From Geosiphon pyriformis (taxonomy: Eukaryota > Glomeromycota > Glomeromycetes > Archaeosporales > Geosiphonaceae): DNA of 43,811 nt. The translations under genes were made by a program, and so were the position numbers. The stretch spans positions 1 through 43,811 of the forward strand of contig JAAOMT010000517.1 in assembly GCA_016748015.1 (NCBI GenBank). The letters run 5' to 3'. The notes beneath the pieces were generated by a model, which saw only the letters and a program-made list of their open reading frames with translations, did no database searches and had not been told where the DNA came from. Positions 1,037-43,206 of the stretch are shown here, piece after piece. Positions within the stretch are counted from its first letter, which is position 1; the number at the start of each line of letters is the position of its first letter.

Positions 1037-1188
1037 ATTTATCACACGATACAAGTTTGGAATTTCTTGATTAACATATTGAGCGAATCCTTTATTTCCC
1101 ACACGTGGTTGACCATAGGTAAGAATCTGAATAGTTTTGGGCTTGAAATCTGATTTTAATACTAGCAGTGCTGAAAATAATGCCAGGG
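1037..1188 (-). pseudogene. Class 3 lipase-like gene, fragment of third exon
   Basis: The exon starts after a CAG acceptor (1191-1189) in phase 1, like the third exon of the other lipase-like genes here. It encodes A-L-A-L-F-S-A-L-L, then the core strand I-L-T-Y-G-Q-P-R-V-G-N, then L-Y-R-V-I-N, and is cut by the adapter just before the expected catalytic Asp. The Q-P-R motif puts it with the Gly-elbow subfamily. Upstream, at about 1250-1300 on the minus strand, a stretch ending in a GTAAGT donor in phase 1 reads like a degraded nucleophile-elbow exon with an in-frame stop, so the gene may have been a pseudogene before the assembly cut it. The catalytic status cannot be judged. Confidence 0.75.
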
Positions 1189-1191
1189 CTG

Positions 1192-2514
1192 TGGGAAATT
1201 TAAATATTTTTAATGATCTAGTACAATTATTCTCCTGCCACAAAAGTATGCTAATAAACTTACCTCTGCAGATAAATCCTTAGCAAATAGCCCCAATAAA
1301 AAGTTAAGAAGTCAGTTATCCTTCTATTATTTCACAGTCTGACGTTTCTACAATCGACAAAGATCAGTTAGTTTTTAATCAGAAAATTAGCCATGATCTG
1401 AATACGAGAGCTAAACTAGAGACAAATTTCTGCATGACCAACTTTCAAAGAAAATGACTAAAAAGATTTTCAGACTTTTAATAGTATTAGTGGTAAGGAA
1501 TTGATAGGTCATATTAAATATTTTCATGAAATAACAATTTGAAATTTATCTTAGCCAATTATCTTCCTCTTTTTTCTGCTGTATTATTACAGTTCAATTT
1601 TTTCTTTTGCTTCAATAGTACTTATTTTATATCTTGTATCAGCACTAATGTTACATATATTTGCCATTTAATTTTAAAATTAATTATTAGCTTGATTATT
1701 GACTCGATTAATAACTTGATTTTTTGACTTAGTTATTGATTTAACCATTGACTTAAACATTGACCAAATTATTGATCTAATTGTTAACATGATTATTTAT
1801 CTCTTTTGAAAAATATACAAGCAAAACTTTTAAAAGCTGTAGAAAAGTAATTGACTATTTAAGTACAGTAATTTTAATTTACTTCCATTATTATTATTAT
1901 TATTTTTATTTGTATTATTCTTAATTTTAGCAGAAAACTTATTGAAAAGTAAATAATACTTGGTATTAGATTTTAAAATTATAGCAACTGTATTATTCTT
2001 TGTTAACAATCACAAACTGTTTTTTAACTTTCAGATTTCCTTAAAAAGATTATTGATTGTGATTTTTATAAAATTAACCATATTAATTTAATTACTTACT
2101 TATATAATTTGCATTCTTGTTAAAACTTTCCTTGATTATTATTATTAATATACAACTACTCTTTTTTTTGTTATCTATTAGTATACTTCAATTTATAACG
2201 ATATCAAACTATGCAGGAGTTTTAATTATATTTGCAAAATAACTAGATAACAAAATATAAATTGTTAAAAATTGTTATTTGTAAAAGTTCAAAGAGTCTT
2301 ATATATTCAAAGAATTTAGGCAAAAGCTGGTTTTTTAATAAGAAAAAACTTTTGTTAGTAATACCAAACATGATTTATAGTTTTCAAGTATTTTTACCCA
2401 TTTGCTGACCAGATTTTTATTAATATTATCAAAAGCAAGTGCAAATTAAACAGCCATAGTCTTTTTTTTAATAATTTGTTGTGTTATACTTAAATAAATG
2501 TACAACTAAAACAA
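1192..2514. other. AT-rich intergenic DNA, nothing assigned
   Basis: Apart from the possible degraded lipase exon near 1250-1300, this stretch is AT-rich with short ATT runs (about 1888-1910). The small open frames have no start context, motif or splice support. Confidence 0.5.
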
Positions 2515-2815: not shown

Positions 2816-2920
2816 CTTAAAATAATAAACCAAAAAATGGCGAATAAAATTTTTTCTTTGTTGATCATTTGTATTCTTATATATTAAATAATATTAACCC
2901 AACCACAACTTATTACAAAT

Positions 2921-3290: not shown

Positions 3291-3299
3291 TGTACAAAA

Positions 3300-4230: not shown

Positions 4231-4236
4231 TTTAAT

Positions 4237-5090: not shown

Positions 5091-5098
5091 TATAAAAG
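5091..5098 (+). promoter_or_regulatory. TATA box of repeat-protein gene
   Basis: TATAAAAG lies 209 bases before the ATG of the downstream secreted protein. The presumed 5' untranslated region holds the motif AAGCCCTTCT (about 5114) and a CATA/TATA microsatellite (about 5170-5250). The second gene of this family has the same TATAAAAG followed at once by the reverse complement of that motif. Confidence 0.55.
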
Positions 5099-5169
5099 AG
5101 ATACTGGTTAAAAAGCCCTTCTCTCATAAATCAAAAGGACAAAAGTTTTTTGATAAAAATAAAGAATAA

Positions 5170-5252
5170 ACACACATACATACATTCATACATACATTCA
5201 TACATACATACATACATACATAAATATATATATATATATACATACATACAAA
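5170..5252. repeat. (CATA)n / (TA)n microsatellite
   Basis: Repeated CATA and CATT tetranucleotides run into an alternating TA tract and back to CATA. The tract lies between the TATA box and the start codon, so it is probably in the 5' untranslated region. The long frame that reads through it from 5150 is an artefact of the repeat. Confidence 0.85.
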
Positions 5253-5299
5253 TAACTTTACCAAAAATTTCTTTCAAACTTGCGAGATTTAAAACAAAA

Positions 5300-5791
5300 A
5301 TGGAAAAAATACTCTTATTCATTACTTTACTTCTTCTCTCTGGATTAGTATTCTCCGCACCATTACCACCCATGCAAAAACGAGAACAAAAGTTCAATGT
5401 CGGCCCTGACAACGGTACTAATAGTGCGGATGGCAGCGGGATGTTCAATGTTGGAAAAAATAACGGAAACTACAACGGAAACAATAACGTAGGTTCGGAT
5501 AACGGCAAAAACAATGGTAATTTCAATATTGGGGAAAATAACGGAAATTATAACGGCAACGACAATATTGGAAATCAAAACGGAAATGATAATGGTAATT
5601 TCAATATCGGAAAAGATAACGGCAATTATAATGGCAACAAGAATGTTGGAAATCAAAACGGAAATCAAAACGGAAACTTTAATTTTGGATCTCTTAACGG
5701 TAATGCTAATGGCAATCAAAATTATGGAAATACTAACGGTAACTTAAACGGAAACAGCAATGGCAGGTTTTATTCTTATAAAAGCGGGTGA
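5300..5791 (+). CDS. Secreted Asn/Gly-repeat protein with Kex2-type site
   Basis: A 163-residue single-exon protein. The ATG at 5300 is chosen because it starts a clean signal peptide (M-E-K-I-L-L-F-I-T-L-L-L-L-S-G, cleavage near V-F-S-A). A short pro-segment ends in a dibasic K-R at about residues 27-28, a Kex2-type site. The mature part is almost wholly tandem 13-residue units of the type N-F-N-I-G-x-N-N-G-N-x-N-G, ending in a Tyr/Ser/Lys tail. There are no Cys residues in the repeats. The regular period suggests a beta-solenoid or a low-complexity wall or matrix protein, but that is inference; the function is not known to me. A paralogue lies at 13608-14087 on the other strand. Confidence 0.88.
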   Translation: MEKILLFITLLLLSGLVFSAPLPPMQKREQKFNVGPDNGTNSADGSGMFNVGKNNGNYNGNNNVGSDNGKNNGNFNIGENNGNYNGNDNIGNQNGNDNGNFNIGKDNGNYNGNKNVGNQNGNQNGNFNFGSLNGNANGNQNYGNTNGNLNGNSNGRFYSYKSG

Positions 5792-7576: not shown

Positions 7577-8908
7577 TTAGTTACATTTGCTCATTAGTTG
7601 ACCAAAATAAGGTCCTTCGTTAGCTTTTAAACTTGCAATCGATACTTCTTGGGCTTTTTTGTTACATTCCTTTTGTGAATAAGTGAGGCGGTGAAATATT
7701 TAATAGTGCTTAATAATAAACTTAATTTCCAAAAATAAATAATTTAAAATCTTCAATTCATACCTGTGGCTCATTAATATACCCTGTATCATCTTCCAAA
7801 ACACCAAGACATTTATAAACATTCATTTTTAAAATACTGCAGTGACAATTGAAATCAATCCAATATTCAATCCCATGATGCCAGTATCCATAATGATCAT
7901 GGTTTGTGGGAATTTGAGGTATATAGTCACTTGAATAAGTAATACGATAAATAGCACCTAAATTTTTGTTCACATGTTCCGCAAATTGGAAATTACCCAT
8001 TCTTGGTGAGCCAAATGTGAAAACTTGGACTTCCAATCTTCTATGAAACTTTGTGAATTCTAATGCTGTCAAGACTGCGTATACTGTCATAAGATGAAAA
8101 ATAGATTCAGCTATATTTTTAAATTAAAATTAAAAAAAAATCTTGATTAATGTCAAAACTCACCACCACCAAAGTTATGTCCTGTCAAACTCAAACTCTT
8201 GAATGATACATTTCTTTTCAAGAAAGCACCCACTCTTTGTATTATGTTCTGCCACGCCTCATTAAACCTTTCCCAAAAATGGGAATCGACAAATCCATTG
8301 TATACATCGGGATAACCAACCATTGTTTTTTTGTTCAACATCCAAGATGGTTCTTTTGCCGCAAAATAGACAACCAACTCTTTGGCTTCTATGTTTGCAT
8401 ATAAACCAACTAGAAAATTTTGAAAGAATTATTGAAATTTTCTCCAAATTATTTTAGCTTCAAATCATTTTTTCAAAATAAATTTTTATCTACCGTAAAT
8501 ACCAGGTAAAATTTCTGTAACTTCTTTATCAGAGCAATAAGCCTGAGTTGCATATTCTGCAAAAAACGCGAATCGTGATAGCAGAGGATCATTCTTTGAT
8601 AGCAATATCTTTGTTAATTGGTGTTCCTTTATATTTTCAGAAATGAATTTCGAACCCTCTATTTTTTGTAGCCGCTCATTTTTTGAATAAAATTTTGGGT
8701 TTTGTGAATTTGATAGTCTTTTTGGAATCTGTACTTTTATTGACGATAAAAGTTTATTTTGAAAATTTTCCCGATTTAAAAATTGTCTGCGAGATAATAC
8801 ATTCTCACGCATTAAAGGAATCCTCGAAATATAATCTCTATCATATTGAACGGCTATGCAATAAACCCAAAAATTCAAAAAAAAAAAGAAGGCAAACACC
8901 ATGCCCAT
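7577..8908 (-). CDS. Class 3 lipase-like pseudoenzyme, Asn elbow
   Basis: Four exons: 8908-8494, 8409-8164, 8083-7764 and 7669-7577, with GT/AG junctions in phases 1, 1 and 0; 357 residues. The N-terminus is a hydrophobic anchor (about residues 3-20), followed by a variable linker, a conserved A-Y-C helix near the end of exon 1, then the alpha/beta-hydrolase core. The nucleophile elbow reads L-T-G-H-N-F-G-G, with Asn217 in place of the catalytic Ser. The core strand is F-T-F-G-S-P-R-M-G-N. The catalytic Asp is kept (R-I-T-Y-S-S-D-Y-I-P). The C-terminal exon reads E-C-N ... A-N-E-G-P-Y-F-G, where the catalytic His would be Asn. The oxyanion segment (V-Y-F-A-A-K-E) is also unlike the usual F-R-G. 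In-frame and well spliced, so probably expressed but not a working Ser hydrolase; secreted or type II membrane protein. Confidence 0.88.
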
Positions 8909-9589
8909 TATTAGAAGGTGATTTATTCCCTCTAAATCTAGGAAATAAATTTTTTTTGATTACTACCCATAAATATAGCATTTTTAATCAGTGATTCAAA
9001 TTGATTCGTTTTCCTGACACTAGCTTCAAAATTCGATTTCGACAAGCAAAAGTGAAACATTTTTTATGCTTTAAGAATAATTTGTACCAAAAGTCAATAA
9101 CTCAAAATTTGGGAGTCAAAGAAATTAGAGATAAGATTGTTTTCCCGATGCAAGGAATCTAGTTTGACGACGATAACTAGATATCTGATTCCTCGGACAT
9201 TGATCATCCCGATACATTTCTTATCAGCCACCAAATATCAAGGTTTGAGAAAAGTTGGTTTGCAAAAGTAAAATATCAAAACTTTGGTTTCTTCTAATAT
9301 TATAGTTACTTTAAGGGAAAAATTTTGAAACTTATATTTATGCAATAATAATCAAGCCTTCAAAGTCTTGGAAGATTTGTAGTCAGCGGAAAATAATGGC
9401 GGTAATACTGCTAGCAAAATTTGTTGCATTACTGACCTTTCAAAAAACCAACGCGTAAAATTTGTTTTTTTTACCCCTTCATTTTGCACAACTTCCTTTT
9501 TTTTTCCTGCTGCCACCCATTTTATACTTTTCACCCCGTAAATTGAACCGTGAAGTCGTCAAGTACTTTTCAATAGTTATCGCAGCACA
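8909..9589. other. Intergenic, nothing assigned
   Basis: Upstream region of the lipase-like gene, then DNA with poly-T and pyrimidine runs near 9465-9510. No gene is supported; the small frames on both strands lack motifs. Confidence 0.4.
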
Positions 9590-13607: not shown

Positions 13608-14087
13608 TTAATGCCAACCAGTATATTTTATTCCGTTGTAATTTCCGTTTTTGTTGCCGTTATAAGATCCATGATTATAGTTACCGTTTAGGTTTCCGTT
13701 ATAAGATCCAAAATTATAGTTTCCGTTTAGGTTTCCGTTATTAGATCCAACATTATTATTGCCGTTGTAATTTCCGTTGTTATTACCAATATTGAAATTG
13801 CCATTATTATTGCCATTATTGCTTCCAATGTTATTATTTCCGTTGTTATTTCCATTATTGTTTCCAATGTTGAAATTACCATTGTTGTTGCCATTATTTG
13901 AACCTTGGTTACCGTTTCCGTTGTTGTTTCCATTATTGGATCCAACGTTGAAATTTCCGTTACTATTTCCATTACTGTTACCATTGTTAGGGCCGACGTT
14001 GAATTGGCCTCGCTTTTCAATTGGTTGGGCTAATACTAATACAGAGGCGACGAGGACCAAGGCAATGAAAAAGCTAATTTTCGACAT
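13608..14087 (-). CDS. Secreted Asn/Gly-repeat protein with Kex2-type site
   Basis: A 159-residue single-exon paralogue of the 5300-5791 protein, on the opposite strand. Signal peptide M-S-K-I-S-F-F-I-A-L-V-L-V-A-S with cleavage near V-L-A, then a very short pro-segment Q-P-I-E-K-R and a mature start G-Q-F-N-V-G-P. The body is about eight tandem 13-residue units (N-F-N-I-G-N-N-N-G-N-N-N-G and variants), with Phe/Asn/Tyr alternating at the second place, so that pairs of units form a 26-residue super-period in the middle. It ends I-K-Y-T-G-W-H. No Cys in the mature part. The repeats are cleaner than in the paralogue. Role unknown; a secreted structural or effector-like protein is possible. Confidence 0.9.
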   Translation of the reverse strand: MSKISFFIALVLVASVLVLAQPIEKRGQFNVGPNNGNSNGNSNGNFNVGSNNGNNNGNGNQGSNNGNNNGNFNIGNNNGNNNGNNNIGSNNGNNNGNFNIGNNNGNYNGNNNVGSNNGNLNGNYNFGSYNGNLNGNYNHGSYNGNKNGNYNGIKYTGWH

Positions 14088-15127: not shown

Positions 15128-16488
15128 TTAAAATTTTCCCATCATCTGGCCAAAATATGGACCTTGACGTAGCAGCTTCTTTACAGAAGAGTTTTTCCAT
15201 TCTTGGTCATTACAATCCTAAAAATGAATAAATAAAAAAATAAAAAAAATAAGCAAATGAATAATTCTTTCCTCCCCCCCCCCCTTCCTGAAAAAACAAA
15301 CCTTAGATTCATCCATATACTCATTCGGTCCTAAACACTTGTATAATTTTGTTTGCTCCTCTTCGCAAGCGCAATCACTTATTAGAGGTATCCAGTACTC
15401 GGTATTATGATGAAAAAAACCGTACGTTCCTGAAGCATGAGGGTAATTCGAAGAGTAATCATCAAAAAGAGTAACTCGATATACTTTAAATCTTTGATTG
15501 ACATGTTGTGCAAAACTTCGATTTCCAATCCTTGGAGCACCAAATGTGAACACCTCTATATCAAAGGAATTTTGCAGTCGAGAATCAATTGCTGCCATTT
15601 CTCTCAAAGCTGTTTTAAAATCAAGAGCTGTAAAAATAGCAAGTACTAATAGAAGCATTTTAAACGTTAGTTATTATTAAAAATTATCTTGAAAATCTCA
15701 CTATAATAAACTTAACTTCAATATACCACCACCCAGAAAATGCCCAGTAAAACTTATTTTTTTAATTCCCGGAAAACGTTTCAACGTTCGATAAATATTT
15801 TTGAAATTCTTATCTTTTGACTCTAAATAATCTTTGTAGGTCATTATCTCGACCATTGCCCCATGAACCATTTTATAAGGTGTCAACCTTTTAGCAGTAC
15901 CAAACCATTTACTATTTTTATGACGAATACTGACCACGAGAGTTTTTTCAAGTTCATCGACAGTAACTAGTTGAATTATAGTATATATAAGAATATTTAT
16001 TTAAATAATTTTAATCATGCAAGATAAATCATTTGAATTAAATTTTTTTTACCAAATATGTTAGATGGCTTCTTTTTTAAAGAGGCATAATATACCTTGG
16101 CAGCATAATATGCATGTAGCTCTATCTTTTTATAAATTATATCTTCCGGTGGAACAATTATCTTTGTTTCGGTACGAGTTATTTCATTTAGTTTGTCAGT
16201 CGTTGCCATTTTCAAAGGTAAATCCTGGTATTTAGTATTGAAAGAGTTCATTGAGAATGATTCATAATTTTGCTTTGATCTTTTAGCCAGGATTTTTGTA
16301 AAATTTCTCGAATATCCGTGAACTGATTTAGAAATTAACGATACATTGAAACTTTTTTCGACTGTATAATTGCTTCTCACTGCTTCTAATGTCTCAAAAA
16401 GCATATAGAAACATATAACTAAAATTATGATTAGAAACAAAACCCAAGGAAGAATATGAAAAATCTTGGATCGACTATTCTTTTTCAT
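15128..16488 (-). CDS. Class 3 lipase-like pseudoenzyme, Phe elbow
   Basis: Four exons: 16488-16053, 15966-15727, 15645-15302 and 15217-15128 (phases 1, 1, 0), 369 residues. One membrane anchor at about residues 10-33 (F-H-I-L-P-W-V-L-F-L-I-I-I-L-V-I) after a basic tip, so type II topology is expected. The elbow is F-T-G-H-F-L-G-G, with Phe222 at the Ser place. The core strand is F-T-F-G-A-P-R-I-G-N. The catalytic Asp is kept in R-V-T-L-F-D-D-Y. The C-terminal exon reads D-C-N ... L-R-Q-G-P-Y-F-G-Q-M-M-G-K-F, so the catalytic His is Arg. The protein stops one residue before the last Cys found in its relatives, so that disulfide cannot form. The usual A-Y-C helix reads V-Y-Y-A, without Cys, consistent with loss of the partner. 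The third intron holds a run of 11 C. Confidence 0.85.
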
Positions 16489-18318
16489 CGAATACTTTTT
16501 GATCTTGAATGGAATTAAAAAAGATGATAACGCTTTTAAGTCTTTGGTATTTTCCCAAATAATGGATTATAAAAGAGTTTTTAAATTTGAAAAAAAATTA
16601 TTTCTTCCTATCAAGATTGCAATAAATAAATGTTTGACTCTTAGAAAAGGATCTAGATTGTAGGTTATTCTATTTGTTCACAAATGCCACGTTTCATTTA
16701 TTGGGATGAATGTTAAAAGATTAGCAGAATGATGTTTCTTGGTAACAACACAGGAAAACAAAAAAGATCAAGTCAATTTAATAAAGTAAGTAATAAAATA
16801 CTTGAAACAGAAAACAGTTTCAGAACAGTTTTTTTAATCGAAAAGAAACGTAGAAAAATTTTACAGAATTGATTTTCTTGATTTATGAATCAACAAAAAA
16901 AGTCAAGCAAGAAAAAATTCTAAATTTTTAAAATCGGTTTTGGAAGGATTCAATTGTTAAAACATGCAACGTTTTTTATAACTATATTGAATTTTTAATC
17001 TTTTATAAATCTCCATTGATTTGACACTATTTTTATTAATAAATTATGCCTTTTTCTGAAAATTCACAAGAAGCAAAATATCATTATACTTTTGCTTAAA
17101 AAACAACTAAACTTATTTGATTTCTTTTATTGACTAAATATTTCGAAATTTAAAATATTGATAACCATTTAAATGATAATTAAAATATTATTAGTGCAAA
17201 TATTTATAAAATGAATTAGGTTACAAAAGTGGTGGTTAAACTAGAGTAATTTGATAATTTGTTCGTTTTAAAATAAATCAAAGAATATCACAATTAAAAC
17301 TATAATAAAATTTGAAAAAGAAATTTATACATGTAAAAATATCCCATTACTTATTTTGTTACAAAGAAAAAAAAAAGATTTAAGAAAAATTTGTCACAAT
17401 TGCTAAATTCTTCAAACACAAAAAATATTTAGTGAGATAACTCATCAATTTATAATTATTTTTTAAAGGATAACTTTCAAATCGACGAAGATATTGAAGG
17501 GTTTTAATTTAATTATTTTATCTTTCTAACCTTATTATTTAAAGGATTCATTTATTTTGTGCATTCAATAATAAATGTACAAAGTTTTTGGAATTTGTTA
17601 TACTTCAATATTTATAAATCTTCTTTGCTTGTTTTTAGGATTTGGTTGATCATCACTTATCACAAAAATAACATTGATAAGTGATGAATATCAATAGATC
17701 CAGTTTATCTTTATCCTCATTAATTATTTTAGCATGGCACTGCACACAGTTTCTCGTCCCAGAGGTTAATACACATTCCAAATAGCAAGGGGTAACATTT
17801 AGGTCTGTGGACTTTTTAGATTTTCGAAAACTATGGTATCAGAAAACTTTTATTTTTCTCCTTTTTGTTTCACACGAAAAAGGTTGACTTGCGTCGTTAA
17901 TTAAAACGTCCAAAAATCGTTTCTTTCTACAAAGCTTTTAAGTATAAATTTTCATAAAATAAATTTTTAAAAATATTTTTATAATAATGATTTATAGGAA
18001 TTGGAATAGGAATATTATATTGATTTTCCAATCAATATACAATAAATAATAAATTAATAATGTATAGCATGAAACTTATATTTTTTTCAAAAAAAAAAAC
18101 CATATCAGTTTTAAACAATTTTTTAACTTTGTGATAAAATCAGCCAAAATTTTTGTTCAGCTTACAAAATACTATGACCAATTAATTTGTGATAATACTA
18201 TATATAATACTCATTATCATCTAATCTTGGAAATTTCAGATATTTTTCAGAGGTTGCTTCATTTTCAATAAAAATTAAAGAAACATCCCAATTAGCAGAA
18301 ACCAAAAAAATATTTTGA
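16489..18318. other. AT-rich intergenic region with one inverted repeat
   Basis: No supported gene. A perfect 12-bp inverted repeat, CATCACTTATCA (17651-17662) and TGATAAGTGATG (17675-17686), with a 12-base loop lies in it. A slightly GC-richer stretch at 17735-17830 was checked for a tRNA-like box pair and does not have one. Confidence 0.5.
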
Positions 18319-26648: not shown

Positions 26649-28331
26649 TTCGACTGATAGTGATCGATTTTTTAATAAAAATATTTAATAAGAATTATTT
26701 GCTTTAGTTAAAAAGTAGGTTTCAGAATCGAACAAAAAATACCCTTAAATGGAGAACATGCAATTCAATTGATCGCACAGATTTGAGCCTTTTGATTTAG
26801 CCATAATAGTAACAAAAGATTTTTCTGTTGACACTTAAATGAGAAAACGTCCAAAAAAGAATTGGACTTAGATAATTATGAGATATTTGGAAGATGAAAA
26901 AAATACGTATTCAATTAATTATAATGGTTTTGAGAAAATGACTTTTGCTTTTAGCTTTATTTGCTGTATTTTCAGATGATTAAATATTAGTATTATTTTT
27001 TATATTTTAATTAACGGTGATAGATTTGTTTATCAACCCCAAGATTTTTGAAATGGAGATGATTTCATTATAATAAGAATATCATCAAGGAAATACTCGT
27101 ATTTATAGTTTAATTACAAAAATTAGAAAAAAAATAACCGAATTTAAATCAGGAAATGTACTGTCGTAAAAAAAGGCTTTTTCATTATATTTATTTCAAG
27201 ATTGTGGATTGTACTTACAATTAGACTTGCAAAAGTTTCGAGAATCTAAATTTAGAATCATTTTGGAATTTCATTCCGATTCTCACATCAATGCTAGACA
27301 ATATTAAAGACTTAAATTATTTCAAATGACTGATATAATTTTGAAGGTCATGCTAATAGGAAATATCTTATTCCAGTCTTCATTTGGGAACTAGGTAAAT
27401 CATCTCACGACTAAAACTTGATTTAAAAAAAGAAATCAATCCAATTATGCTTTAGGTAGTTTCAATTTAATGTAAACCCATATTATTAGTTTAGAATTTT
27501 CGCTGAAAGTAAAATAAACCAAGTTACATTATACTAAAAAGATTTGAATTTATAAATTTTTCTCTGATTTTTTTTTAGCTTCTTAAAAACATAACTGGAA
27601 AACGAACAAAACGCTAGCCAAAGTAAAAAGTGTTTTTTGTTGAAGAAGATTAAGCATTAACAATAATTTATTTTTTAAACTTACTTTTCCGTTATATTTA
27701 GTATGAAACGTCAAGGGCAAAATTAAATAATATTAGCCTTAAATATATTTAATAATACGAAATTTGCGTTTTATTTCATAATTTTCAAAATTAACCAACT
27801 GTTGAAAATAGATAAAATGAAAATAAACCAAGTTAATTCTAAAAGTGCAAAATTAGTGAAAAAGCTAGTAATTAAATCATTATTCACCATTTGTGCACCT
27901 AAAAATCAATTTTTATGAACGAAAAATATTATTTTTTTGGGGGGATTTAATTTCGAGAATTTTTTTTAAACCAATGCATCGCACTCTTTGGATATATATA
28001 TATAAATGTACCTTTTATTTAAAGGTGAAATATTACTTGTAAAACTCTAAAGTTTATTGTCAAAATTAAGAATCTAATTTTCACGGAATCTTGATGCTTT
28101 TTTATTTAATAATAAGCGATTTTATAAAAATTCCGGTAATCGATAAAACTCTTGAAATAAAGATATATTCATCATTTCAAAAGAATTAAATACCTTTTCC
28201 AGTAGTGTAAAATTTTATCGATAATCATAAAACTTTTTAGTTTGTTGATTTTAGAAATTTTTTACAATTCCTAGGATAGATAATGCTCAATAGTAATTAT
28301 AAGCTCTAAATTTACAGAAATTCAATTTAAT
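26649..28331. other. AT-rich intergenic region, nothing assigned
   Basis: No gene, RNA or repeat array is supported between the lipase-like gene and the assembly gap. Confidence 0.45.
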
Positions 28332-29311
28332 NNNNNNNNNNNNNNNNNNNNNNNNNNNNNNNNNNNNNNNNNNNNNNNNNNNNNNNNNNNNNNNNNNNNN
28401 NNNNNNNNNNNNNNNNNNNNNNNNNNNNNNNNNNNNNNNNNNNNNNNNNNNNNNNNNNNNNNNNNNNNNNNNNNNNNNNNNNNNNNNNNNNNNNNNNNNN
28501 NNNNNNNNNNNNNNNNNNNNNNNNNNNNNNNNNNNNNNNNNNNNNNNNNNNNNNNNNNNNNNNNNNNNNNNNNNNNNNNNNNNNNNNNNNNNNNNNNNNN
28601 NNNNNNNNNNNNNNNNNNNNNNNNNNNNNNNNNNNNNNNNNNNNNNNNNNNNNNNNNNNNNNNNNNNNNNNNNNNNNNNNNNNNNNNNNNNNNNNNNNNN
28701 NNNNNNNNNNNNNNNNNNNNNNNNNNNNNNNNNNNNNNNNNNNNNNNNNNNNNNNNNNNNNNNNNNNNNNNNNNNNNNNNNNNNNNNNNNNNNNNNNNNN
28801 NNNNNNNNNNNNNNNNNNNNNNNNNNNNNNNNNNNNNNNNNNNNNNNNNNNNNNNNNNNNNNNNNNNNNNNNNNNNNNNNNNNNNNNNNNNNNNNNNNNN
28901 NNNNNNNNNNNNNNNNNNNNNNNNNNNNNNNNNNNNNNNNNNNNNNNNNNNNNNNNNNNNNNNNNNNNNNNNNNNNNNNNNNNNNNNNNNNNNNNNNNNN
29001 NNNNNNNNNNNNNNNNNNNNNNNNNNNNNNNNNNNNNNNNNNNNNNNNNNNNNNNNNNNNNNNNNNNNNNNNNNNNNNNNNNNNNNNNNNNNNNNNNNNN
29101 NNNNNNNNNNNNNNNNNNNNNNNNNNNNNNNNNNNNNNNNNNNNNNNNNNNNNNNNNNNNNNNNNNNNNNNNNNNNNNNNNNNNNNNNNNNNNNNNNNNN
29201 NNNNNNNNNNNNNNNNNNNNNNNNNNNNNNNNNNNNNNNNNNNNNNNNNNNNNNNNNNNNNNNNNNNNNNNNNNNNNNNNNNNNNNNNNNNNNNNNNNNN
29301 NNNNNNNNNNN
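28332..29311. other. Assembly gap of 980 N
   Basis: A run of N. The first exon of the following plus-strand lipase-like gene should lie here. Confidence 1.
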
Positions 29312-29324
29312 TTAATAATTAGGG

Positions 29325-30248
29325 CCAGAAATGATTAAAAGCCAAATAGAAAAAACCAAGTTTACACTAGAAAACTTCCTCCCTGATATGGGAGCTAAAA
29401 TTCCAATAAGATTTGATTCAAATTGGTGGAGATCATTGCCAGATGACTGTTTGAAACTGTTTGACGGTAGAATACAACGCGCTCTAATGATATTAACTGA
29501 CATAGAAGCGAATAAATCGATTCGTATTGTTTTAAGTGGACATGGTATTGGTGGATGTAAGCAATTATTAAAAATTTTGATTTATTCTTTTTCAAGCAAA
29601 AGTTTAAAAGTTAGTAGCTGGGATCCTAACTATATAGTTTAATTATGATATTAGTTTATGCAGAAATATACGGCTTGTTATTGATATCTCATCCAAGATA
29701 TAATGAAAATATTTCTACTACTATTATAACATTTGGCTCTCCACGTCCGGGAAATTCTCAGCTTGCAGCTCAATACCAGCAAAGGCTTAGAATTGGTCTC
29801 AGAGTCTACAGGATTACACATTCCAATGACTATTTCCCTCATTTTCCAAAGATATCAACCGATGGTAAACTATATATGCACCCTGGTACTGAGTATTGGA
29901 TTCCAGATAGTAATTGTAATTGCCAAGATCCTGATGCTTCCAAACTTCTTCGTGAAGGTTATGATATTATCTATGAATGTCCCGAATTTTCACTACAGGA
30001 TAAAAAAAAATATGGCGAAAATACGGTATTTATAGTTTTTATCAAAAAAAGGCTTTTATATAGAAAGTTATTTTAATTTATTATTTTAGAGTGTTATTAA
30101 GTAAATATAAAAATAGCTCATTTATTTAACTTTTTTGTAGGAATGCAATTTAGGTACTGATGGTAAAGGAACAAGAGCTCATTTCGGCCCTTATTTTGGA
30201 GTGACATTTGGAAGTTGTGAAGAGTATTATCCTATTGGTAGAATTTAA
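29325..30248 (+). CDS. Class 3 lipase-like pseudoenzyme, Gly elbow, 5' end in gap
   Basis: Visible exons: 29325-29556, 29655-30025 and 30141-30248 (phases 1 and 0 between them). The anchor and A-Y-C exon must be in the N gap. Exon sequence begins at G-P (the end of the family's F-F-K-G-P segment) after an ATTAG; the bases before it contain in-frame stops, so either a new intron splits F-F-K|G-P here or the gap edge is wrong. The elbow is L-S-G-H-G-I-G-G, with Gly for Ser. The core strand is I-T-F-G-S-P-R-P-G-N. The Asp is kept (R-I-T-H-S-N-D-Y-F-P). The His is kept (A-H-F-G-P-Y-F-G-V-T-F-G-S-C). The second junction codon gives Phe where the relatives have Ala/Val. Confidence 0.8.
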
Positions 30249-31605: not shown

Positions 31606-33061
31606 TTATTCCCCGATCAAATTTCGTGTATCACATAAACCCATGACGACCCCGAAATAGGGCCCTTTGTGAGCCTTGTACGCTGTTTTATCTTCCCCTT
31701 TTTGGCCGACATTACATAACTTTTGAAAGGAATTAACAGAAAATCCCAAGTTAGATTGATGTAATAAATCGGTTTTTTCTGATTACCATCACTAACCGGA
31801 TGTTCTTCCGAACTGGGGCAAGTATAAAGCTTGAAATTTTCCATTCCAATTTCTTCTTCTGATCCTTGAACATTGGCCTGACCAGCACAATTACAATCTC
31901 TCACATCAATCCAAAACTCCAATCCATGATGCATGTAAAAAAAATCATTTCGAGGTGGTAATTGTTTTCGGGGAACATAATCATTGGCATTTGTTACACG
32001 CGCAATCAAGATTCCCAGTTCATTAACAGCACGAGCGAATTTGGCTGTTCCAATCCTCGGTTGGCCAAAAGTTACAATTGCAGTTTGGAGATCTTTGAAT
32101 TTTCCGTTTCCTTTTGATTTTTCAATTTCAAAGTAAAGTCCTGCTAAAAGGGCGTATGCTTTTATAAGATTGTGACAGAAATAAAAAAATTGACTAAATT
32201 AGATATTTCAATTATAGACATAAAAGCAATATCTACACAGCCTTAACTTTACAGAATATTTAAGATTACCTCCACCAACACCATGACCCGTAAATATGAG
32301 CTTTTCATAATTTTCGTAATTTTGAATTTTTCGATACAATTGAGGCAACATAACTTGTACATCCATATTCCAAATTTTGTCAACCAATGTATTATCAGGA
32401 GGTCTATTAAAGAGAGAACTAAAATCAAAATTTACTAAAACTTTTGGTCGCATTTTCCATTCGTTGGGACTCAAATTTTTTCCCCAAAAATAAGCAATAA
32501 TTTCTTTTTCGTTTGGGACTAGATGGATCTCAGCTATAGAAAGTAATTAAACTAAATTCATAAGAAATCTAAAAAAGTTGCATCAAAGTCTCCAGCCTGG
32601 GAATACTTTTAAAAAAATTTTTAGTTACCAATTTTATCGGGAGCCTCGTTTCCATTTGTAGGACTACAGTACCCTAGTGCTGCTACCTGTGCCATGCGGG
32701 CAAGTAAATCCCATGGCCCCGTATGAGGGGAGACCTCAATAATTTTCTGCGTTTTTAATGTAACTCGAGGTTGTTTTGATTTACCAAAAAAGTAAAAACT
32801 TGATTCCAACTTAGATCTAAAATTGCGAGAAAATGCGTTTCTTGGTGATAATCTTGGATGTAAATTTAACCAATTGCTGATATTATATTGGTTTTCTTCA
32901 GGGGTTCGACTTAGGAATTCAAAAGATTTGAGGGAGTTAAAAAATTTGTTGTAAAATAATATTATCACTATAAATAAAAAGAATGTATAAAGTGAGGTTT
33001 TATGAAAAACTATCTTGAAATTTTTTCTGACGTTACTTCGAGAAAAATTTATGAGATACAT
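31606..33061 (-). CDS. Class 3 lipase-like pseudoenzyme, Gly elbow
   Basis: Exons: 33061-32629, 32533-32270, 32158-31797 and 31719-31606 (phases 1, 1, 0), 390 residues. Anchor at about residues 24-41 (L-Y-T-F-F-L-F-I-V-I-I-L-F-Y) after a basic N-terminus. The third intron is best started at CCG|GTTAGT (31796) because this keeps phase 0. The elbow is F-T-G-H-G-V-G-G, with Gly229 for Ser. The core strand is V-T-F-G-Q-P-R-I-G-T. The Asp is kept (R-V-T-N-A-N-D-Y-V-P-R). The His is kept (A-H-K-G-P-Y-F-G-V-V-M-G-L-C). The oxyanion segment is A-Y-F-W-G-K. Closest in motif pattern to the 19240-20610 gene. Confidence 0.9.
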
Positions 33062-35243
33062 TGAGATTGGCTTTAGAAAATGTTTTTATTCATAATGTAA
33101 CAAAACTTATCCCATATTTTTTAGAGGTTTTGTATTGCAGAAAAAGTTATTAAAATACAGGATATTTCTTGAAATATTTATTTGTATTATCATTCACGAA
33201 TTTTCACTATCATAGTCATATTTTGATTAATACATGTATATCAACAAACGGGAAAAAAAATTTCGCACGCTCTTCATCAAACTTTTTAGGTGTAAAATTC
33301 TTTGACTCAGCGATAAATAGAATATTCTGACAAAAAAACAATTTTTAAAAGAAATATAATTTACTTTTTGTGGCAAGTTATTATAAATACCTTTGAAGTT
33401 GTTTTCAAAATTTTTGTCCATCAACTATTTAAGAATATTGGTATAATTTTTTGGCTAAAATATCAAGACTAGATTAATGTTTGATATTGTGAAGATTATA
33501 AATTTTTAAAAGTTATTTTCACATTATAACAGAAAAATATGTATGATTTACTTACAGATATGAACCTTTGTTACCAACTATAACAATAAATTATTATTAT
33601 CAAAGTAATCTCAAAAACCATTATTCAACAAATATTTTTCAGATCAAAAACATGTATGTTTAATAAGAACTAATATGAATCAAATTTAAACATTTTGTTT
33701 ATTATAAAGACTGAATTGGGTAAAAAAAATTTAGATATTTTCTTTAAACATTAAGTTCAGATTTAATTTATATGTATTTTTTAAGAACATTGTTTTAATT
33801 TTTTTGAATTTTATTTGAAAACCTAAAATAAATATTTATTAACCAATTTATCGTTTATTGATTTAACAAAACCAAGAATTAATATATATTGTGTTTCTCT
33901 TGAATTCCTAGCCTTAGTAAAAAATTACATTTATTTTCTCTTGGAAAAAAATTTACTTTAAAAAGCTTACCAGAAAATTCTCCAATTTTATAATTAGAAA
34001 ACAATTGGTTTTTGAAATTTTTCTCTTATATCTAATTAGTTTAAATTAATTATCAAGTTTATTAATTAATCAATTAATATAAACAAATTGAACCAGAACC
34101 TATTAGAAATATGGATTATTATTTTCTTTTTCATTAAATGTATTTAGACTTGTATTACATTTTAATAATTCAAATGATTAATATAAATTGTTATCAAGAT
34201 TTGAAAAAATTAATCAAAGGTCTAAATTATGTTCCGTCTGTTTCATGAAATCTAATTATGATAAAATGGGTTTTTACTGCTAAAAAGATAAATGGGTTTT
34301 TACTGCTAAAAAGATAAATGGAGATTTATATTCTAATCATAATTTTTAGGAATTAATTTTTACAAAAGCAGTTTTAATTATAGAAATTGATAAAATTACG
34401 CTTCATAATCAAGAATGCTCTTGCGATACATAATCACGAAAACAAACAGACAAAAAATTAAAGTTTAAACCTTGCTGTTAAAAAGTATGGGTGAATGTTG
34501 TACACTCTAGTGTCATGAGACTGCTACTTCCTGTTGTAGCAGCAAACTCAATTTTTTTGTTAGACAGTTGTAAGTACGTATAACTGTTGAATTATATCTC
34601 GGAATCTGTAAAAAATGTGTCAAAAATCTCAAATAGCTTTGAAAACTTTTTGAACTGTGATAGCTAAAAATTTCCCCATTGAAATTAAAAGTAACAAATT
34701 TTAATCATAATAGCTACTTCAACAATTTCTTTGAACAATGCTACTTTCTCATGATCTATTCATTTTCTGAAAGAAAAATTAAAAATATTCATATATTAAT
34801 TCATTTCCGAATATAAAAATAAAAATAAAATTCAAATATTGATTCCAAAAGTTTAACAAAAACGTGGCTCTAAAATTTACTTAATATAAGAATGTTGTTT
34901 TTGGAAAAATAAAAAAGTCAGACTTCATATTACTTAAAAGGTTGCAGTTTATTTGCTTTACAAAACTTGGAAATAGTAAGGAGTACGAGTCAGATTTAAT
35001 CGATTAAAAAAAAGTTGTCGCATGACATGACTCGTGAGACAATTCAACAAAAATTGGTAGGTAAAAAGGGCCATTTTTGCAATGTACATGTATTACAAAA
35101 CTTCTCTCTTATTTCCCGTTTGATGCATGTGTGGCACCGCTGTCAAAAGTTACCAAAAAAGAATGAATATTATGACGCGTGAGCAAAAGCAAACAAGCGG
35201 TGTAGAATGTCGTCAACATAAAATTTTTAAATAATCCTAACAA
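33062..35243. other. Intergenic region with a 26-bp tandem duplication
   Basis: AT-rich DNA with no accepted gene. A perfect 26-bp direct duplication with the core GGGTTTTTACTGCTAAAAAG lies at about 34266-34317. Confidence 0.5.
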
Positions 35244-35547: not shown

Positions 35548-36336
35548 TTAATCTTCAGTGACGACACCGATAGATTTCAGAGTAGCTACAATTTCTTCGG
35601 CTGGAACGTTTTCATCATATAATGAAGTCCATGATACTGCGGCACCGGTATACAAGGCAGGGGCAGCGAACGCTGTAACTCCGGCGGGGAATAAAACCGG
35701 TATCAATATTACGGCAATCAATGCCGCCGTCGTACCAATAATTAGGAACGGATGAGCAAGAACAAATTGTTTTGCTTCGTTAAACGCGGTCAGAAATGGA
35801 TTTTTCGATTTGCCACTACCATGACGAATATTAGCATTATGAAACGATCCACTTCTACCGTGAAGATGTTTTTGTTTCTCATGGAACGAATTAACCATCC
35901 TACTAACGTCAACATGTGGGTGATAATTCGTTAAATCAAGAGTATAAATTCTTGAGGCTGGATGTTCTAATCTTCCATTCTTGTCACCATTATGATAAGT
36001 CATTGCCAATTCTTGCGTTAGTGCCCGAGCACCATCGAGGCTTGATGCTTCAGAAGTGGATGTTTCAAGAATGAATTGGAATTTTTGAGTTACAGGGAAT
36101 GGTTGTACCACGCGAAATACTTGAAGAAAAGTTTGTACTGATTTTTGATCGGATAATACTAATCGTTGAATGGTGAATATTAAACGGTCATCGACGAGAT
36201 CAATTGAAAAGTATCGATTGAAAGCTGCTTTGTTGGTGCTTCTATTCATTCCTGTATTTGGTGGTAAATGTCCATTACGAACAAAAGCGTCAAGTAAAGC
36301 AACCTCGAATAGTTCTGTGTCTGATAGTTGAACCAT
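35548..36336 (-). CDS. Hypothetical protein with hydrophobic C-terminal region
   Basis: An uninterrupted 262-residue frame from ATG to TAA, with codon use and GC content clearly above the AT-rich flanks, so very likely a real single-exon gene. The N-terminal half (about residues 1-130) looks globular, with alternating charged and hydrophobic stretches (L-S-D-T-E-L-F-E-V-A-L-L-D-A-F). A His/Lys/Gly-rich polar linker (K-H-L-H-G-R-S-G-S-F-H) spans roughly 155-180. A long hydrophobic segment (about 192-234; F-L-I-I-G-T-T-A-A-L-I-A-V-I-L) could be one or two membrane spans or a re-entrant hairpin. A short acidic tail ends E-I-V-A-T-L-K-S-I-G-V-V-T-E-D. No signal peptide, so possibly tail-anchored. 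I do not recognise the family. Unrelated to the lipase-like genes around it. Confidence 0.8.
   Translation of the reverse strand: MVQLSDTELFEVALLDAFVRNGHLPPNTGMNRSTNKAAFNRYFSIDLVDDRLIFTIQRLVLSDQKSVQTFLQVFRVVQPFPVTQKFQFILETSTSEASSLDGARALTQELAMTYHNGDKNGRLEHPASRIYTLDLTNYHPHVDVSRMVNSFHEKQKHLHGRSGSFHNANIRHGSGKSKNPFLTAFNEAKQFVLAHPFLIIGTTAALIAVILIPVLFPAGVTAFAAPALYTGAAVSWTSLYDENVPAEEIVATLKSIGVVTED

Positions 36337-38266: not shown

Positions 38267-38315
<49 letters not shown>
38267..38315. repeat. (AAT)n microsatellite
   Basis: About sixteen AAT units in a row in intergenic DNA. Confidence 0.9.
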
Positions 38316-38317
<2 letters not shown>

Positions 38318-39448
38318 TACATGTGATTGGTTTCAATTTTTGTCATTTAGGTTTTTAATTTTCTAGCATTTTGGGCGTTCTCGATACGATCCACTTTTCG
38401 AGAAAATTGCTTTTTGGTTATTTCATTTTTTTTATTCGGGAAAAGTTTGATCAATAATTTACCTCATGAAACTAAAAACACTTGTAATCGGTTCATATGA
38501 CGACACTTACGATATCAAGTATAGTTTAATTTGCTACTCATTTCTAATCTTTTAGTTTTCACCTGTCACGGTTAAATTTTAATCCTTTTAGAAAACCTCT
38601 ATCCCTTAAGTTTTCTTAAATGGAAATTTTTCAGCTGAATCAAAACTCAAAAATTTGCTTTTGATAAATTTTGTACGGAGGAAGAAAATTGGTTTGCCCA
38701 AAGATGAATTTCAATTGAATTATAAAAAAATAAGAATATTTTGGATTGAATTTTAAAAATGCCAATATTTGTAAAAAAAATTTGAAATTATTTTTTCAAA
38801 GTAAAATAGGCTGCTTATAAAAAGAAAAAGTAAAAATCTTTACCTATCACAAATCTTGGTATTTGAACTGTTATCGCAATCGATATATTTTCCTCGGTAA
38901 TAAACTTTCATGCTATTGTTTGCTTTCACCCCTAAATTATTTATTTTGATAGTATCAATCTATTTTGAAGATTTAACCTTTTTTTCTAGTTTTAAAAATG
39001 TTGTGTTTCGGGGAGTTAGTTAATTTATTTGAAAAGAATACTTTACAAATATAAAATAAGTTGTTAAAATTTTTTGAGCCTTATCATGACTGATGATCAT
39101 GCATTTCAAGGCTTGCACTTTTTGACAGAGAAAAAGGATGACAAACTAAAAATATTAATCTTTTAAAGCGTGATTCAAATGATAAAGTGATAAAATAATA
39201 AATAAACTTTTTATAATAAATACAAATATTTACATTTCAAAGCAAATTGTAAGAAATGTAATTTTTTCTGTAACAAACTTTCTATAAATACTTTTGTGAA
39301 TCTCAAAGAATCAATACCTCAGATGTAAAAAGATGTTCCGAATTTGAGTCGATGATTTAAACCAAAGGATTTCGAAATATCCAATTCGACAACTTAGAAG
39401 GCAAGTAATTGTAACTTAATTGAAAAACTTTTTATTCAATAGTTAGAT

Positions 39449-41133
39449 ATGATTTCTAGATTCTTTTTTTCCTTTAACTTAGATACAAATTTGGATAGAC
39501 TTTTACGATACTTTTTAAGAGGAGCAGCAACAATTGTGGTTACTATAAGTTCATTACTTTTGACCGCATTCATCTTGTCCAAATCAAATTCTGATACTTC
39601 TAGAATATACACCTATAATGGTACTCAATTAAAATCTATGATTGAGAAAATTCCTTTGAAGATTGGAATATCGGAAAAGTTGTTTCATAAAACGACAAAC
39701 GTAAATAATAAGCTCTCGAATCTTGAGTGTGATGGTGCAAATATTTTGAATTCTTCAAGAATATCATCCTTTTTCCAACAAAAATTTTCGAATTATAAAA
39801 AATTAGTAAGAAGAAATGAAATCTCAAACCCATCAAATATTGAAGAACAATCGAATTCAATCAAAGAAGAATCCCCTACTTTAATATCGAGTAGAAAAGA
39901 TCCCAATTATAAGTGGGATACATATCCAATCAAAAGAAGGATTAGTCATAAAGAGAGTTTAAAACTCATGAAAAGAATGACAATAGCAGCAAACTTTGGT
40001 TATTGTTCAAAAGAAAATACAATTGGTGAAATTTTATTTAATTCTGATATAATTGGTAACTTTCCAATTCATTTAAAAAATTCGATGCCTTCAAATAAAT
40101 AAATAAATTTTATTTATCGCTACAAATTTCTAAAAACCTAGCTGATGCCTATTTGGATAAAGTTGAACATGATTTGGTCGTGTTCTTTAAAGGACCGACA
40201 CTTAACCTCGATGAATGGAAACAGAGAAAAATATCACTCTCTCAATTTAGTAACAAAGGTCCTCTACCAATATTTGGAAATGTTGATACTGTTTGGAATC
40301 GCCAAGTTAAAATCATGATGCCAGGATTAATTAAAAAAGTAAAAAGTCTATTGGAACATCTTTCGAATTTTAAAAATGGACAAAATCTTGATCAGTTTTC
40401 TCCCAAAATCATATTGACTGGACATGGAATAGGTGGAGGTGAGTATTATCAGAATCTATTTGATATTAAAGGATTCAAAATCCTTTTTTAATAAAAGATA
40501 ATGATATTTTAATTTATTTATCTACTTTAGCTTTTGCTGTCATTGCAGGCCTTTATCTAAATCAAGAAGTTAAAGGATTTGGACATAGATGGTCATTACC
40601 AATCCACGAATCACAAATCAAAGTAGTCACTTTTGGTCAACCACGGATAGGAGATTCAACATTTGCTAGTTTAGTTGAAAAAGAAATATTTGTCTACCGA
40701 GTAACATTTAGATATGATCCTATCCCACGATTATTTCTTCCTCGATCAACCTTTATTCATCACTACAATGAATTTTGGATTGCTGAACCTGACTGCAATT
40801 GTCGATCAACCCCAGAAGGTGTTCGTACCATTGATGGGAAACACGTTGTCTATGATTGTAAAGGTTCTAAAAAAAGACACCTAAAAATTGGTGAAAATTT
40901 GGTGAGTCATAGAACTTGATGTTTCAACCCAATTTTTTATATTTGATAAAATTATAATATTCTTAATTTTAATTTTAAAGCATTGCAATGCAGACCCCGA
41001 AATTGAAGTTACTAATGATATGAAAATTCATTGGGGTCCTTATTTTAAACAATACTTTGGGGACTGTTTGGCTATGAAAAGAAATAAAGCCATTATTTGG
41101 GGACCCCCTTTGAATACCCCTATTGAAAATTAA
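39449..41133 (+). CDS. Class 3 lipase-like pseudoenzyme, Gly elbow, longest copy
   Basis: Exons: 39449-40055, 40142-40438, 40531-40901 and 40981-41133 (phases 1, 1, 0), 475 residues, about 90 more than its relatives. The extra length is in the Ser/Asn/Lys-rich linker after the anchor (anchor at about residues 26-44, A-A-T-I-V-V-T-I-S-S-L-L-L) and in a C-terminal tail (A-I-I-W-G-P-P-L-N-T-P). The oxyanion segment is V-F-F-K-G-P-T. The elbow is L-T-G-H-G-I-G-G, with Gly298 for Ser. The core strand is V-T-F-G-Q-P-R-I-G-D. The Asp is kept but in changed context (R-V-T-F-R-Y-D-P-I-P-R). The His is kept (I-H-W-G-P-Y-F ... F-G-D-C). Confidence 0.9.
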
Positions 41134-42070
41134 AAGAAAAATCATCTACAAGCAATAAGCTTGACTTTTTGTTTAATAAATTATGATGCTTCATAACTTC
41201 ATCTGCAGAATACCAAGAAGACCTTAAATAGGAAACTAACATAAATTGAGATTATTATTAGATCAAAAAAATTTTAGCATAATAAAAAAATATTAATTGG
41301 TTTATATATATTCATTCCATTATTTTGAAAATTTTATTAGTTACAAAAAAAATTGGAAAAAAATTCAGTAATATTTATTTCAAATTTATTTCTACAATTT
41401 TTAAAACAATCACTAATATATTTTGGCTAATAAAAAAAAACTGTCTCATTATTTTGTTAAATTTTTATTTTAAAAATTGCAAAAAACCCTTCAAAATCAA
41501 ATTAATTCTTAATAATTTATGAATTTATCTTTTGTTATTTATTAGTAATATTTTTAAATAATTTACAGTATTTTTTTGATTAATTTATATTTATGTTAAG
41601 AAATTTAAGCATTTTATTTTTAAAAAATTGACTATTAAAAGTAATAAAATGTTAATGATTTTGTAAAAATTTTATGAATTTTTTTCAAATTAAATAAATA
41701 AATAAAAATCTGGAGAATAAAATAGTTTAATTAAAATTACTTGAGTTTTCAATATTAAATAATTACTTTTTTGAGAAAGTTTAATTAATTGAGACTAAAA
41801 TATCAAAAATTAAAAATTAAAAATTTTGGTGCCCTATCACAATGAATTCAAATAAAAAAATGGGTCAAAATATTTCTTTAAATGATTCATATATTATCGA
41901 CAAAGGAAATTTGAATTATCGCAAAATTAAATTTTTAAGATCCAAATAAACTTTCTTTGTAAATTAAGCATCTCTTTATCCATATTACAGCCATTTGTTT
42001 TTCTATTTTATGTAAAGTTTGAAGTCTATTATATATTAATGAGCGTTAATCTCTGTGAAAAAAAAAGTTT
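41134..42070. other. Very AT-rich intergenic, nothing assigned
   Basis: No gene, RNA or array is supported. Confidence 0.45.
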
Positions 42071-43206
42071 CATAGGTTAAAGACTATGAAAATTAAACCA
42101 TTTGTCAATTAAAACGTCAAATGGTTCAGGAGATGAGCAAAGTTCAAGCCGATAACTAAAATACGGTCCAATTCGTTGATAAGAAAATTTGGTATTCAAT
42201 CGTATATTGGAAGCTTTATTAGAATCCTAGAATTTTTTTGATAAAACAAAATCATGTATCAATTTTCACTTGTTTTCTTAAAAATATGTATTATTAAAAT
42301 TTTTTTACAAAAATGGTATCTGTTGAGCTTTTGAAATTTAATCCTGCGAATACAGCTAATGCTTAAGGAAAAAGTAAGAAATATTAGATATTCCCCCGTA
42401 ATATTGTTCAACTGAATTTTTTTGACTTTCTCCAAAAAGGTTTTATGTCATCTTAGGTACTCTGAATACAGGTATGAATCAACTTTTTCATGAATATCGC
42501 CATTTTCATTAATATAAGAAACCTTTGATTTCTTTGTAACCTGTCAATTTGACCCGAGATATCATATTGCTATTATTAAATTTGGGCCGACCCTTTTAAG
42601 ACGAGCTAAAATTCGAAAGTGATAGGTTAAAATTTTAACCAAATTTTATAGGGAAAAAAAGTAAAATAATTTTACCATAAATCCCAATCGCCAACTGATC
42701 AACTTGCTTTTTTAAACACAAAGACACCAAGCTCACATAAGCAAAAAAACGAAATTGGCCAATTAATGGATCATATAATTTTAGCAATCGCTTAGAAGCT
42801 GATTAAGAAGGCTTAGGTTCAGCTACAATTATTTTAGAATTTTTGGATAAGTTGGAATTAAGAAATTCTGAATTTCCAAATTTAATATCATTTCTAGGTA
42901 TTTTTTATTCATAAAAGATTTCAGCAAGATTGAAGAATTTTTTAACCCTTCTCGTTGTAAATTGATTAGCTTTGATAATTGAGCTTTCTTCCGCTGTTTT
43001 AGAAAAGAGAATGAAATTTCGGAAAGAGAAAAAAATTGGGTGTGAAGAAATGGGTTGGAAAAACTTTTTTTTGTTTCAAAATTAAAGTCTCGATCATTAG
43101 GGAATATTAGCATTATTAGAAAATTGAAACCAATGAATAATAATAATAATAAATTTTTGTTTAGATATGATTGAAATTGTTTAAAGAAATTTTTCAGACG
43201 ATTCAT
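42071..43206 (-). pseudogene. Class 3 lipase-like pseudogene, related to the Asn/Phe/Tyr subfamily
   Basis: Pieces of all four family exons lie in order on the minus strand. ATG at 43206 opens a basic tip and membrane anchor (N-L-L-L-L-L-F-I-G-F-N-F-L). Near 42830 the frame shifts and a stop follows. Then R-F-F-A-Y-V and G-I-Y-G with a GTAAAA donor (about 42670) match the end of exon 1, with the family Cys shifted or lost. Exon 2 is broken (V-D-S-Y-L-Y, a stop, then I-T-G-E-Y-L where G-H-x-L-G-G is expected). Exon 3 starts correctly after TTAAG (A-L-A-V-F-A-G-L-N-F, near 42365) but lacks the T-F-G-x-P-R core and the Asp region. Exon 4 (D-S-N-K ... Q-R-I-G-P-Y-F-S, from about 42229) has Arg at the His place. 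Clearly inactivated. Confidence 0.8.

Follow-up and report, generated by a model that had tools for sequence, protein, structure and literature searches.

The DNA analysed here, referred to as the window, is a stretch of 43,811 nt from the fungus Geosiphon pyriformis (assembly GCA_016748015.1, contig JAAOMT010000517.1; contig C177 in the 124.7-Mb, 406-contig genome that was searched). Its G+C content is 27.8%. It carries a cluster of class 3 lipase-like genes, comprising eight copies with a readable nucleophile elbow, one fragment and one degraded copy, and an assembly gap of 980 bases (28332–29311) lies inside it. None of the eight elbows contained the nucleophile Ser. Across the genome most elbows of this family carried Gly, and the Gly copies that were aligned nearly always kept the Asp and His of the triad.

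The joined domains of three of the eight copies were submitted to the Lipase_3 profile (PF01764; curated cut-off, 22 bits), and w9, w8 and w6 (names as in Table 1) scored 68.4, 66.8 and 64.0 bits. A family profile built from 11 rows (9 Gly and 2 Ser) matched solved lipases at 111 bits (6a0w) and 109 bits (Rhizomucor lipase), and EDS1 at 55 bits. The elbow Gly aligned to the Ser of the solved lipases, both with w9 alone and with the family profile, and the kept Asp aligned to the Asp of TLL (Gly rows only); the residues so aligned in the solved lipases are presumably the catalytic ones. The match to feruloyl esterase A extended to profile position 238 of 241 (alignment not printed). A profile of the C-terminal part alone matched solved lipases no further than the EYW motif, short of the His, which we take to be the catalytic His from the position of its motif.

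A six-frame search of the window for G-[HY]-x-x-G-G found, in the lipase-like frames, five elbows with Gly and one each with Asn, Phe and Tyr. Ser was present in 0/8, as a sequence-only reading of this DNA had claimed. A ninth match, GYKSGG at 17219+, lay in a short frame flanked by stops. GHSxGG occurred in none of the six frames of the window (the scan covered neither the 980 unsequenced bases of the gap nor looser Ser elbows), so that the DNA that was sequenced offers no exon of this kind to be spliced into the elbow.

The frames of exons 2, 3 and 4 were open in all eight copies, and a phase-1 intron, placed by sequence, directly followed the GG of every elbow (G followed by GT in seven, T followed by GT at 29538). 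This agreed with the intact frames and conserved splice phases described in the sequence-only reading. The exon ending at the elbow is followed by one that encodes TFGxPRxG and the Asp motif; the last exon carries an xxGPYF-type motif. Asp occupied the catalytic position in all eight copies, and His in the five Gly copies but not in the Asn, Phe and Tyr copies. The retention of Asp and His in the Gly copies is a point beyond the earlier reading.

The upstream exon-1 frame contained a hydrophobic stretch in seven of the eight copies (Kyte-Doolittle maximum 1.7–2.95); the eighth is cut by the gap. In several copies basic residues preceded this stretch, which suggests a type II anchor.

Table 1. 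Lipase-like copies in the window. Coordinates are frame limits; exon joints are inferred from sequence alone.
Copy	Coordinates	Strand	Elbow	Asp and His positions	Other features
w2	7580–8959	-	GHNFGG, 8163–8182	His position Asn	exon-1 frame with hydrophobic stretch 8489–8959; elbow exon; exon 3 frame 7761–8123; exon 4 frame 7580–7699
w3	15131–16566	-	GHFLGG, 15726–15745	His position Arg	exon 1 hydrophobic stretch
w4	19243–20640	-	GHGIGG, 19858–19877	Asp and His kept (AHLGPYFG)	exon 1 hydrophobic stretch; oxyanion position Pro (FKGP)
w5	23154–24620	+	GHGAGG, 23972–23991	Asp and His kept	exon 1 hydrophobic stretch
w6	25282–26684	-	GHYLGG, 25964–25983	His position Lys	weaker hydrophobic stretch, frame from 26684
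w7	29312–30245	+	GHGIGG, 29538–29555	Asp and His kept	cut by gap 28332–29311
w8	31609–33085	-	GHGVGG, 32269–32288	Asp and His kept	exon 1 hydrophobic stretch
w9	39443–41130	+	GHGIGG, 40420–40439	Asp and His kept	exon 1 hydrophobic stretch; Lipase_3 68 bits
Ninth-copy fragment	1037–1279	-			exon 3 only; ends at Nextera sequence 1018–1036
Degraded tenth copy	about 42080–43245	-			exon-3-like start, GPYF-like end; broken frames (not mended)

The elbow pattern with its intron donor, GGNCAYNNNNNNGGNGGNGG, was searched in the whole genome, with the reversed pattern as a control. It gave 409 sites, spread over many contigs, against 21 in the control. Gly was found at 292 of the 409 (control 3), Ser at 44 (38 + 6; controls 0) and Ala at 41 (control 0). 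There were 20 sites with NAN codons (Asp 10, Asn 4, Glu 3 and Tyr 3; control 8) and five with NTN codons (Phe 3, Ile 1 and Leu 1; control 5). The controls of these two classes were high, yet all 25 sites but the Leu site aligned as family members. Seven sites remain by subtraction. The family thus amounts to roughly 390 elbow sites after control subtraction, and more with looser elbows; one strict pattern for elbows without the intron gave 1 site.

All four Gly codons were in use in the first 50 Gly copies (GGT 23, GGA 17, GGC 6 and GGG 4), which indicated that the residue, not the codon, is kept. Given Ser at 44 of 409 sites, eight Ser-free copies in one window have a chance of about 0.40. 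The cluster in the window is therefore typical, and the finding is a genome-wide pattern.

Two further counts were made from the other end of the gene. Coding sites for H-x-G-P-Y-F, which are independent of the elbow, numbered 414 in the genome (control 5) and far outnumbered the 44 Ser elbows. A second sample consisted of 37 His-exon sites that had no listed elbow, picked by eye among the first 100 listed. Read by eye, it contained 21 legible elbows, 19 with Gly (for example GFGIGA, GWGVGG and GYGIGG) and two with Ser. A regular expression read the elbow in eight of the 37 (7 Gly and 1 Ser) and left 29 open, and many of the exon-2 scores were weak. Since this sample was again mostly Gly, the excess of Gly was seemingly not made by the search pattern. 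At loci L161–L197, also read by eye, the His of the elbow is replaced (GFG, GWG, GYG, GRG), with the Gly and the C-terminal His retained.

For comparison of the other positions, copies were fetched from every one of the 44 Ser sites, from 28 of the 41 Ala sites, from one Cys site and from all 22 NAN and NTN sites outside the window. The 288 Gly sites outside the window contributed 65 copies, namely the first 45 in contig order and a further 20 from later in that order, where some sites were skipped. With the eight window copies they made 168 copies, of which 163 were aligned (L042, L052, L087, L117 and L132 were dropped). Among the Gly rows, 67 of 69 kept the Asp and 64 of 68 the His. The corresponding counts were 25 of 27 and 21 of 25 with Ala, 42 of 43 and 34 of 41 with Ser, and 9 of 10 and 9 of 9 readable with Asp at the elbow. 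First-pass counts of His that included unread rows were similar (Gly 47/50, Ser 34/44), and when the His column was masked in the search model, His was found in 63 of 70 Gly rows. Gly, Asp, His and several Cys columns were nearly invariant in the Gly rows over deep divergence.

The rows with Asn, Phe, Tyr, Ile or Glu at the elbow, here called bulky, kept Asp in 12 of 14 and His in 1 of 14 (one was unread in the alignment and is Arg by another reading; first pass, 0/7). The association of a bulky elbow with loss of His gave a Fisher p of about 1e-10, when pooled Gly, Ala, Asp and Ser rows were compared with the 14 bulky rows and the one unread bulky row was counted as not His. It was rejected as an independent association, because the tree described below provided only three independent well-supported pairs. 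Common descent could by itself account for it.

The residue aligned to the oxyanion Ser/Thr was Pro in 28 of the 60 readable Gly rows (Ser in 3, Thr in 1), compared with 4 of 34 Ser rows (p 0.0006, uncorrected for kinship). At the V-H-x-G-F motif, counted in an alignment from which six of 108 rows had been dropped (L042, L087, L070, L009, L052 and L049), 72% of the Gly rows had Asp for His and 58% had Trp for Phe; His was present in 45% of the Ser rows, and Phe in 52%. These changes indicated that, in many copies, the hydrolase machinery is modified at two points, with Asp and His retained.

The ten loci with Asp at the elbow are L050, L102, L105, L106 and L108–L113. L105 combines FRGS, in which the oxyanion motif is kept, with HRGY and GHDAGG. 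Alpha/beta hydrolases with an Asp nucleophile exist, and the Asp-elbow copies resemble them. A swap of the nucleophile is possible at these loci.

A tree was computed from the 163 aligned rows after the columns of the elbow, the Asp and the His had been masked. It was unrooted and came from a quick search with support by the Shimodaira-Hasegawa-like approximate likelihood ratio test (SH-aLRT) only, and 74 of its 159 forks were under 80. One half contained 50 Gly, 22 Ala, 8 Ser and 2 Glu rows, including w4, w5, w7, w8 and w9. The other half contained 35 Ser, 19 Gly, 5 Ala and 1 Glu rows together with all Asp, Asn, Phe, Tyr and Ile rows, including w2, w3 and w6. The elbow label required 49 changes on the tree, with Ser, Gly, Ala and Asp intermixed. 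Well-supported branches alone forced 13 changes for Gly, 9 for Ala, 7 for Ser and 4 for Asp. The ten Asp rows took 9 changes on the best tree (4 forced), and were thus scattered on it.

Clade constraints were applied to 52 of the 163 rows, made up of the window rows and a random draw by elbow class, with groups defined by label after the tree had been seen. In this subset a single clade was rejected in three cases: the window genes, the non-Ser rows taken together and the Gly rows taken together. Together with the intermixed elbows, this ruled out one loss of Ser before the expansion. The sequence-only reading had proposed that serine-hydrolase chemistry was lost before the family expanded. 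That part of it did not survive; a Lipase_3 family with intact frames and without the nucleophile did.

Ser also appeared in places where the neighbours lacked it. L039 and L041 have Ser (TCA) inside a well-supported, mostly Ala (GCA) group, and L001 has Ser (AGT) among Gly (GGT) copies and is 81% identical to L075; all three have Asp and His intact. Read most simply, each of the three regained its Ser, which lies one base away, and this would make the triad complete again. As change counts on an unrooted tree, these data do not distinguish gain from loss of Ser.

Selection was estimated from close paralogues in three groups that lie outside the window, as the ratio of nonsynonymous to synonymous substitution rates (dN/dS), by simple counts that gene conversion may disturb. 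The pooled ratio was 0.81 in eight genes (seven on C100, one on C8), 0.58 in five genes on C96 including one with Ser, and 0.48 in three genes on C104 and C8. The respective intron divergences (0.219, 0.275 and 0.109) were close to the dS values (0.214, 0.312 and 0.149). Single pairs above 55% identity ranged from 0.22 to 1.37. The sequence-only reading had excluded plain decay, and these values supported it; in these groups dN/dS was not near 1 in all copies.

The constraint differed along the gene. In windows of 20 codons, the corresponding ratio of proportions (pN/pS) was at most 0.60 in 14 of 18 windows covering the elbow and exon 3 (the exceptions being 0.74, 0.88, 0.97 and 1.40), and at least 0.88 in 9 of 11 exon-2 windows.

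The remaining features of the window concern its edges and neighbouring frames. An exact 19-base sequence at 1018–1036, which we take to be the Nextera mosaic end, lies precisely at the stop of the ninth copy. Because the adapter sequence sits exactly there, this edge is probably an assembly fault and likely a false joint. In the degraded tenth copy no clean GHxxGG was found, and the last-exon profile matched only at E 0.36. Two alike frames lie at 13608–14087 (-) and about 5096–5788 (+), the former rich in Asn and Gly, with repeats, and starting with a signal-like stretch and a Lys-Arg site; a Pfam profile search with both gave none above cut-off. The longest listed open frame of the window (35548–36336, -; 262 aa, ATG start) was without a Pfam match at E 0.1.

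Because the nucleophile Ser is replaced, we infer that the Gly, Ala and bulky copies do not carry out serine hydrolysis. The reading that we favour, at roughly an even chance, is that the family consists of anchored, Cys-rich pseudo-lipases whose old pocket, with its His-Asp pair, binds a ligand, probably a lipid, without cutting it. The N-terminal hydrophobic segment would serve as the anchor, and the Cys-rich domain would most likely lie outside the cell. Gly or Ala may open the old active-site pocket to an acyl lipid or ester, whose polar head the His-Asp pair would hold without cleavage. The faster-evolving exon-2 region (the lid and the neighbouring helix) may tune specificity, and the family would then amount to a varied collection of surface proteins that bind or sense lipid. 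In the second group, with Asn, Phe, Tyr and similar elbows, the pocket would be filled and the His dropped, and the protein would probably work via its surface only. Gly relieves the strained geometry of the elbow once Ser is unneeded. Such relief explains the Gly but not the kept His, which favours a pocket that is in use.

Several observations weigh against a binding pocket of this kind. The Gly state is not singled out by retention of His (Gly 64/68, Ser 34/41; p 0.098). Since the Ser rows retain His about as often, the kept His appears to belong to the family at large and not to have been eroded in the Gly state. The kept His-Asp pair is also compatible with remaining chemistry or a structural role, and the lipid as ligand is suggested by the fold alone. 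The pooled dN/dS of 0.81 is near relaxed, two exon-3 windows of that group are those at 0.97 and 1.40, and some single pairs exceed 1. Furthermore, 44 Ser copies exist, some of them resembling ordinary lipases.

Another account, possible though rather doubtful, describes hundreds of surface proteins in which the nucleophile would have toggled among Gly, Ala, Ser and Asp around a fixed His-Asp pair, with non-hydrolytic chemistry or lipid sensing as the function and Ser regained in some.

It is unlikely that the proteins are protein-protein or signalling modules like the plant EDS1 and PAD4, with the fold as a scaffold only; the comparison with them in the sequence-only reading is an analogy. 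EDS1 was the best single phmmer match of w9 (8b28, E 1.3e-9), and both the fast exon-2 region and the loss of His in the bulky group would fit such modules. On the other hand, the kept His and Asp of the Gly copies would be left unexplained, and the profile favoured true lipases over EDS1 (111 versus 55 bits), though two of its 11 rows were Ser. The hydrophobic N-termini and the Cys pattern also suggest a location outside the cell, unlike that of EDS1.

That the Gly- and Ala-elbow proteins are still enzymes, the His-Asp dyad acting as a general base on water or a substrate carbon, seems equally hard to favour. Engineered lipases without the nucleophile use the dyad in this way. The near-invariance of Asp and His in the Gly copies would fit, as would the His retained in all nine readable Asp-elbow copies and the motifs of L105. 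However, 28 of 60 Gly copies have Pro, which lacks a backbone NH, as their oxyanion residue, and no natural enzyme precedent was met, though no direct search for one was made.

Relaxed, decaying remnants of a lipase expansion, functionless today, are quite improbable. The window does hold one degraded and one truncated copy, and some paralogue pairs have dN/dS near or above 1. Against this, eight copies have open frames, each of the three groups had a pooled dN lower than its dS and lower than its intron divergence, and the Gly, Asp, His and Cys columns of the Gly rows have stayed nearly unchanged. An artefact of assembly, annotation or search, which the adapter and the gap inside the window might suggest, is very improbable in view of 409 elbow sites against 21 in the control, on many contigs, and of the second sample, in which Gly again made up about 19 of 21 elbows legible by eye (7 Gly and 1 Ser by regular expression).

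Arbuscular mycorrhizal fungi depend on host lipids. A search of the genome with the FAS_I_H profile, run without a positive control, gave no match, and a ketoacyl-synthase search matched one place; both results are weakly consistent with an arbuscular mycorrhizal fungus that depends on its host for lipids. If the fungus is so dependent, this would add to what the fold suggests about lipid as the ligand, and a large and varied family of lipid-binding proteins on the cell surface would be a candidate, open to test, for the uptake or sensing of lipid. The mixture of Gly, Ala, Ser and Asp elbows moreover offers a natural experiment on what makes a hydrolase retain His and Asp when its nucleophile is gone.

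In the excerpts on arbuscular mycorrhizal fungal lipases available from one open-access library, we found no description of this family, and those from PMC8778642, PMC5293756, PMC4746824, PMC8786786 and PMC9601742 do not describe it. Lipases are counted from annotation in genome comparisons. One of these gives a mean of 189 lipases per Glomeromycotina genome, in an excerpt that does not discuss catalytic residues (PMC12574304). If many class 3 members lack the nucleophile, lipase counts based on annotation, and conclusions on lipid breakdown drawn from them, need care.

Three known systems may be compared with the Geosiphon family. Neuroligins and fly yolk proteins are of the alpha/beta-hydrolase kind but have Gly in place of Ser and serve adhesion or carriage; excerpts from the same library contained no passage confirming these Ser-to-Gly precedents. 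They belong to different hydrolase families and have few copies per genome. EDS1, PAD4 and SAG101 use a class 3 lipase-like fold without need of catalysis, and EDS1 is a sequence match to the Geosiphon family. EDS1 acts in immunity inside the cell and carries an EP domain at its C terminus, whereas the Geosiphon copies are apparently anchored, rich in Cys and hundreds in number. With the fungal class 3 lipases (PF01764; Rhizomucor miehei, Rhizopus, Thermomyces and feruloyl esterase A) they share the family, the GHxxGG elbow, the Asp and the C-terminal His motif. They differ from these in that most copies have Gly or Ala for Ser and often Pro at the oxyanion residue, the V-H-x-G-F motif is altered, and a hydrophobic N-terminus and extra Cys are added.

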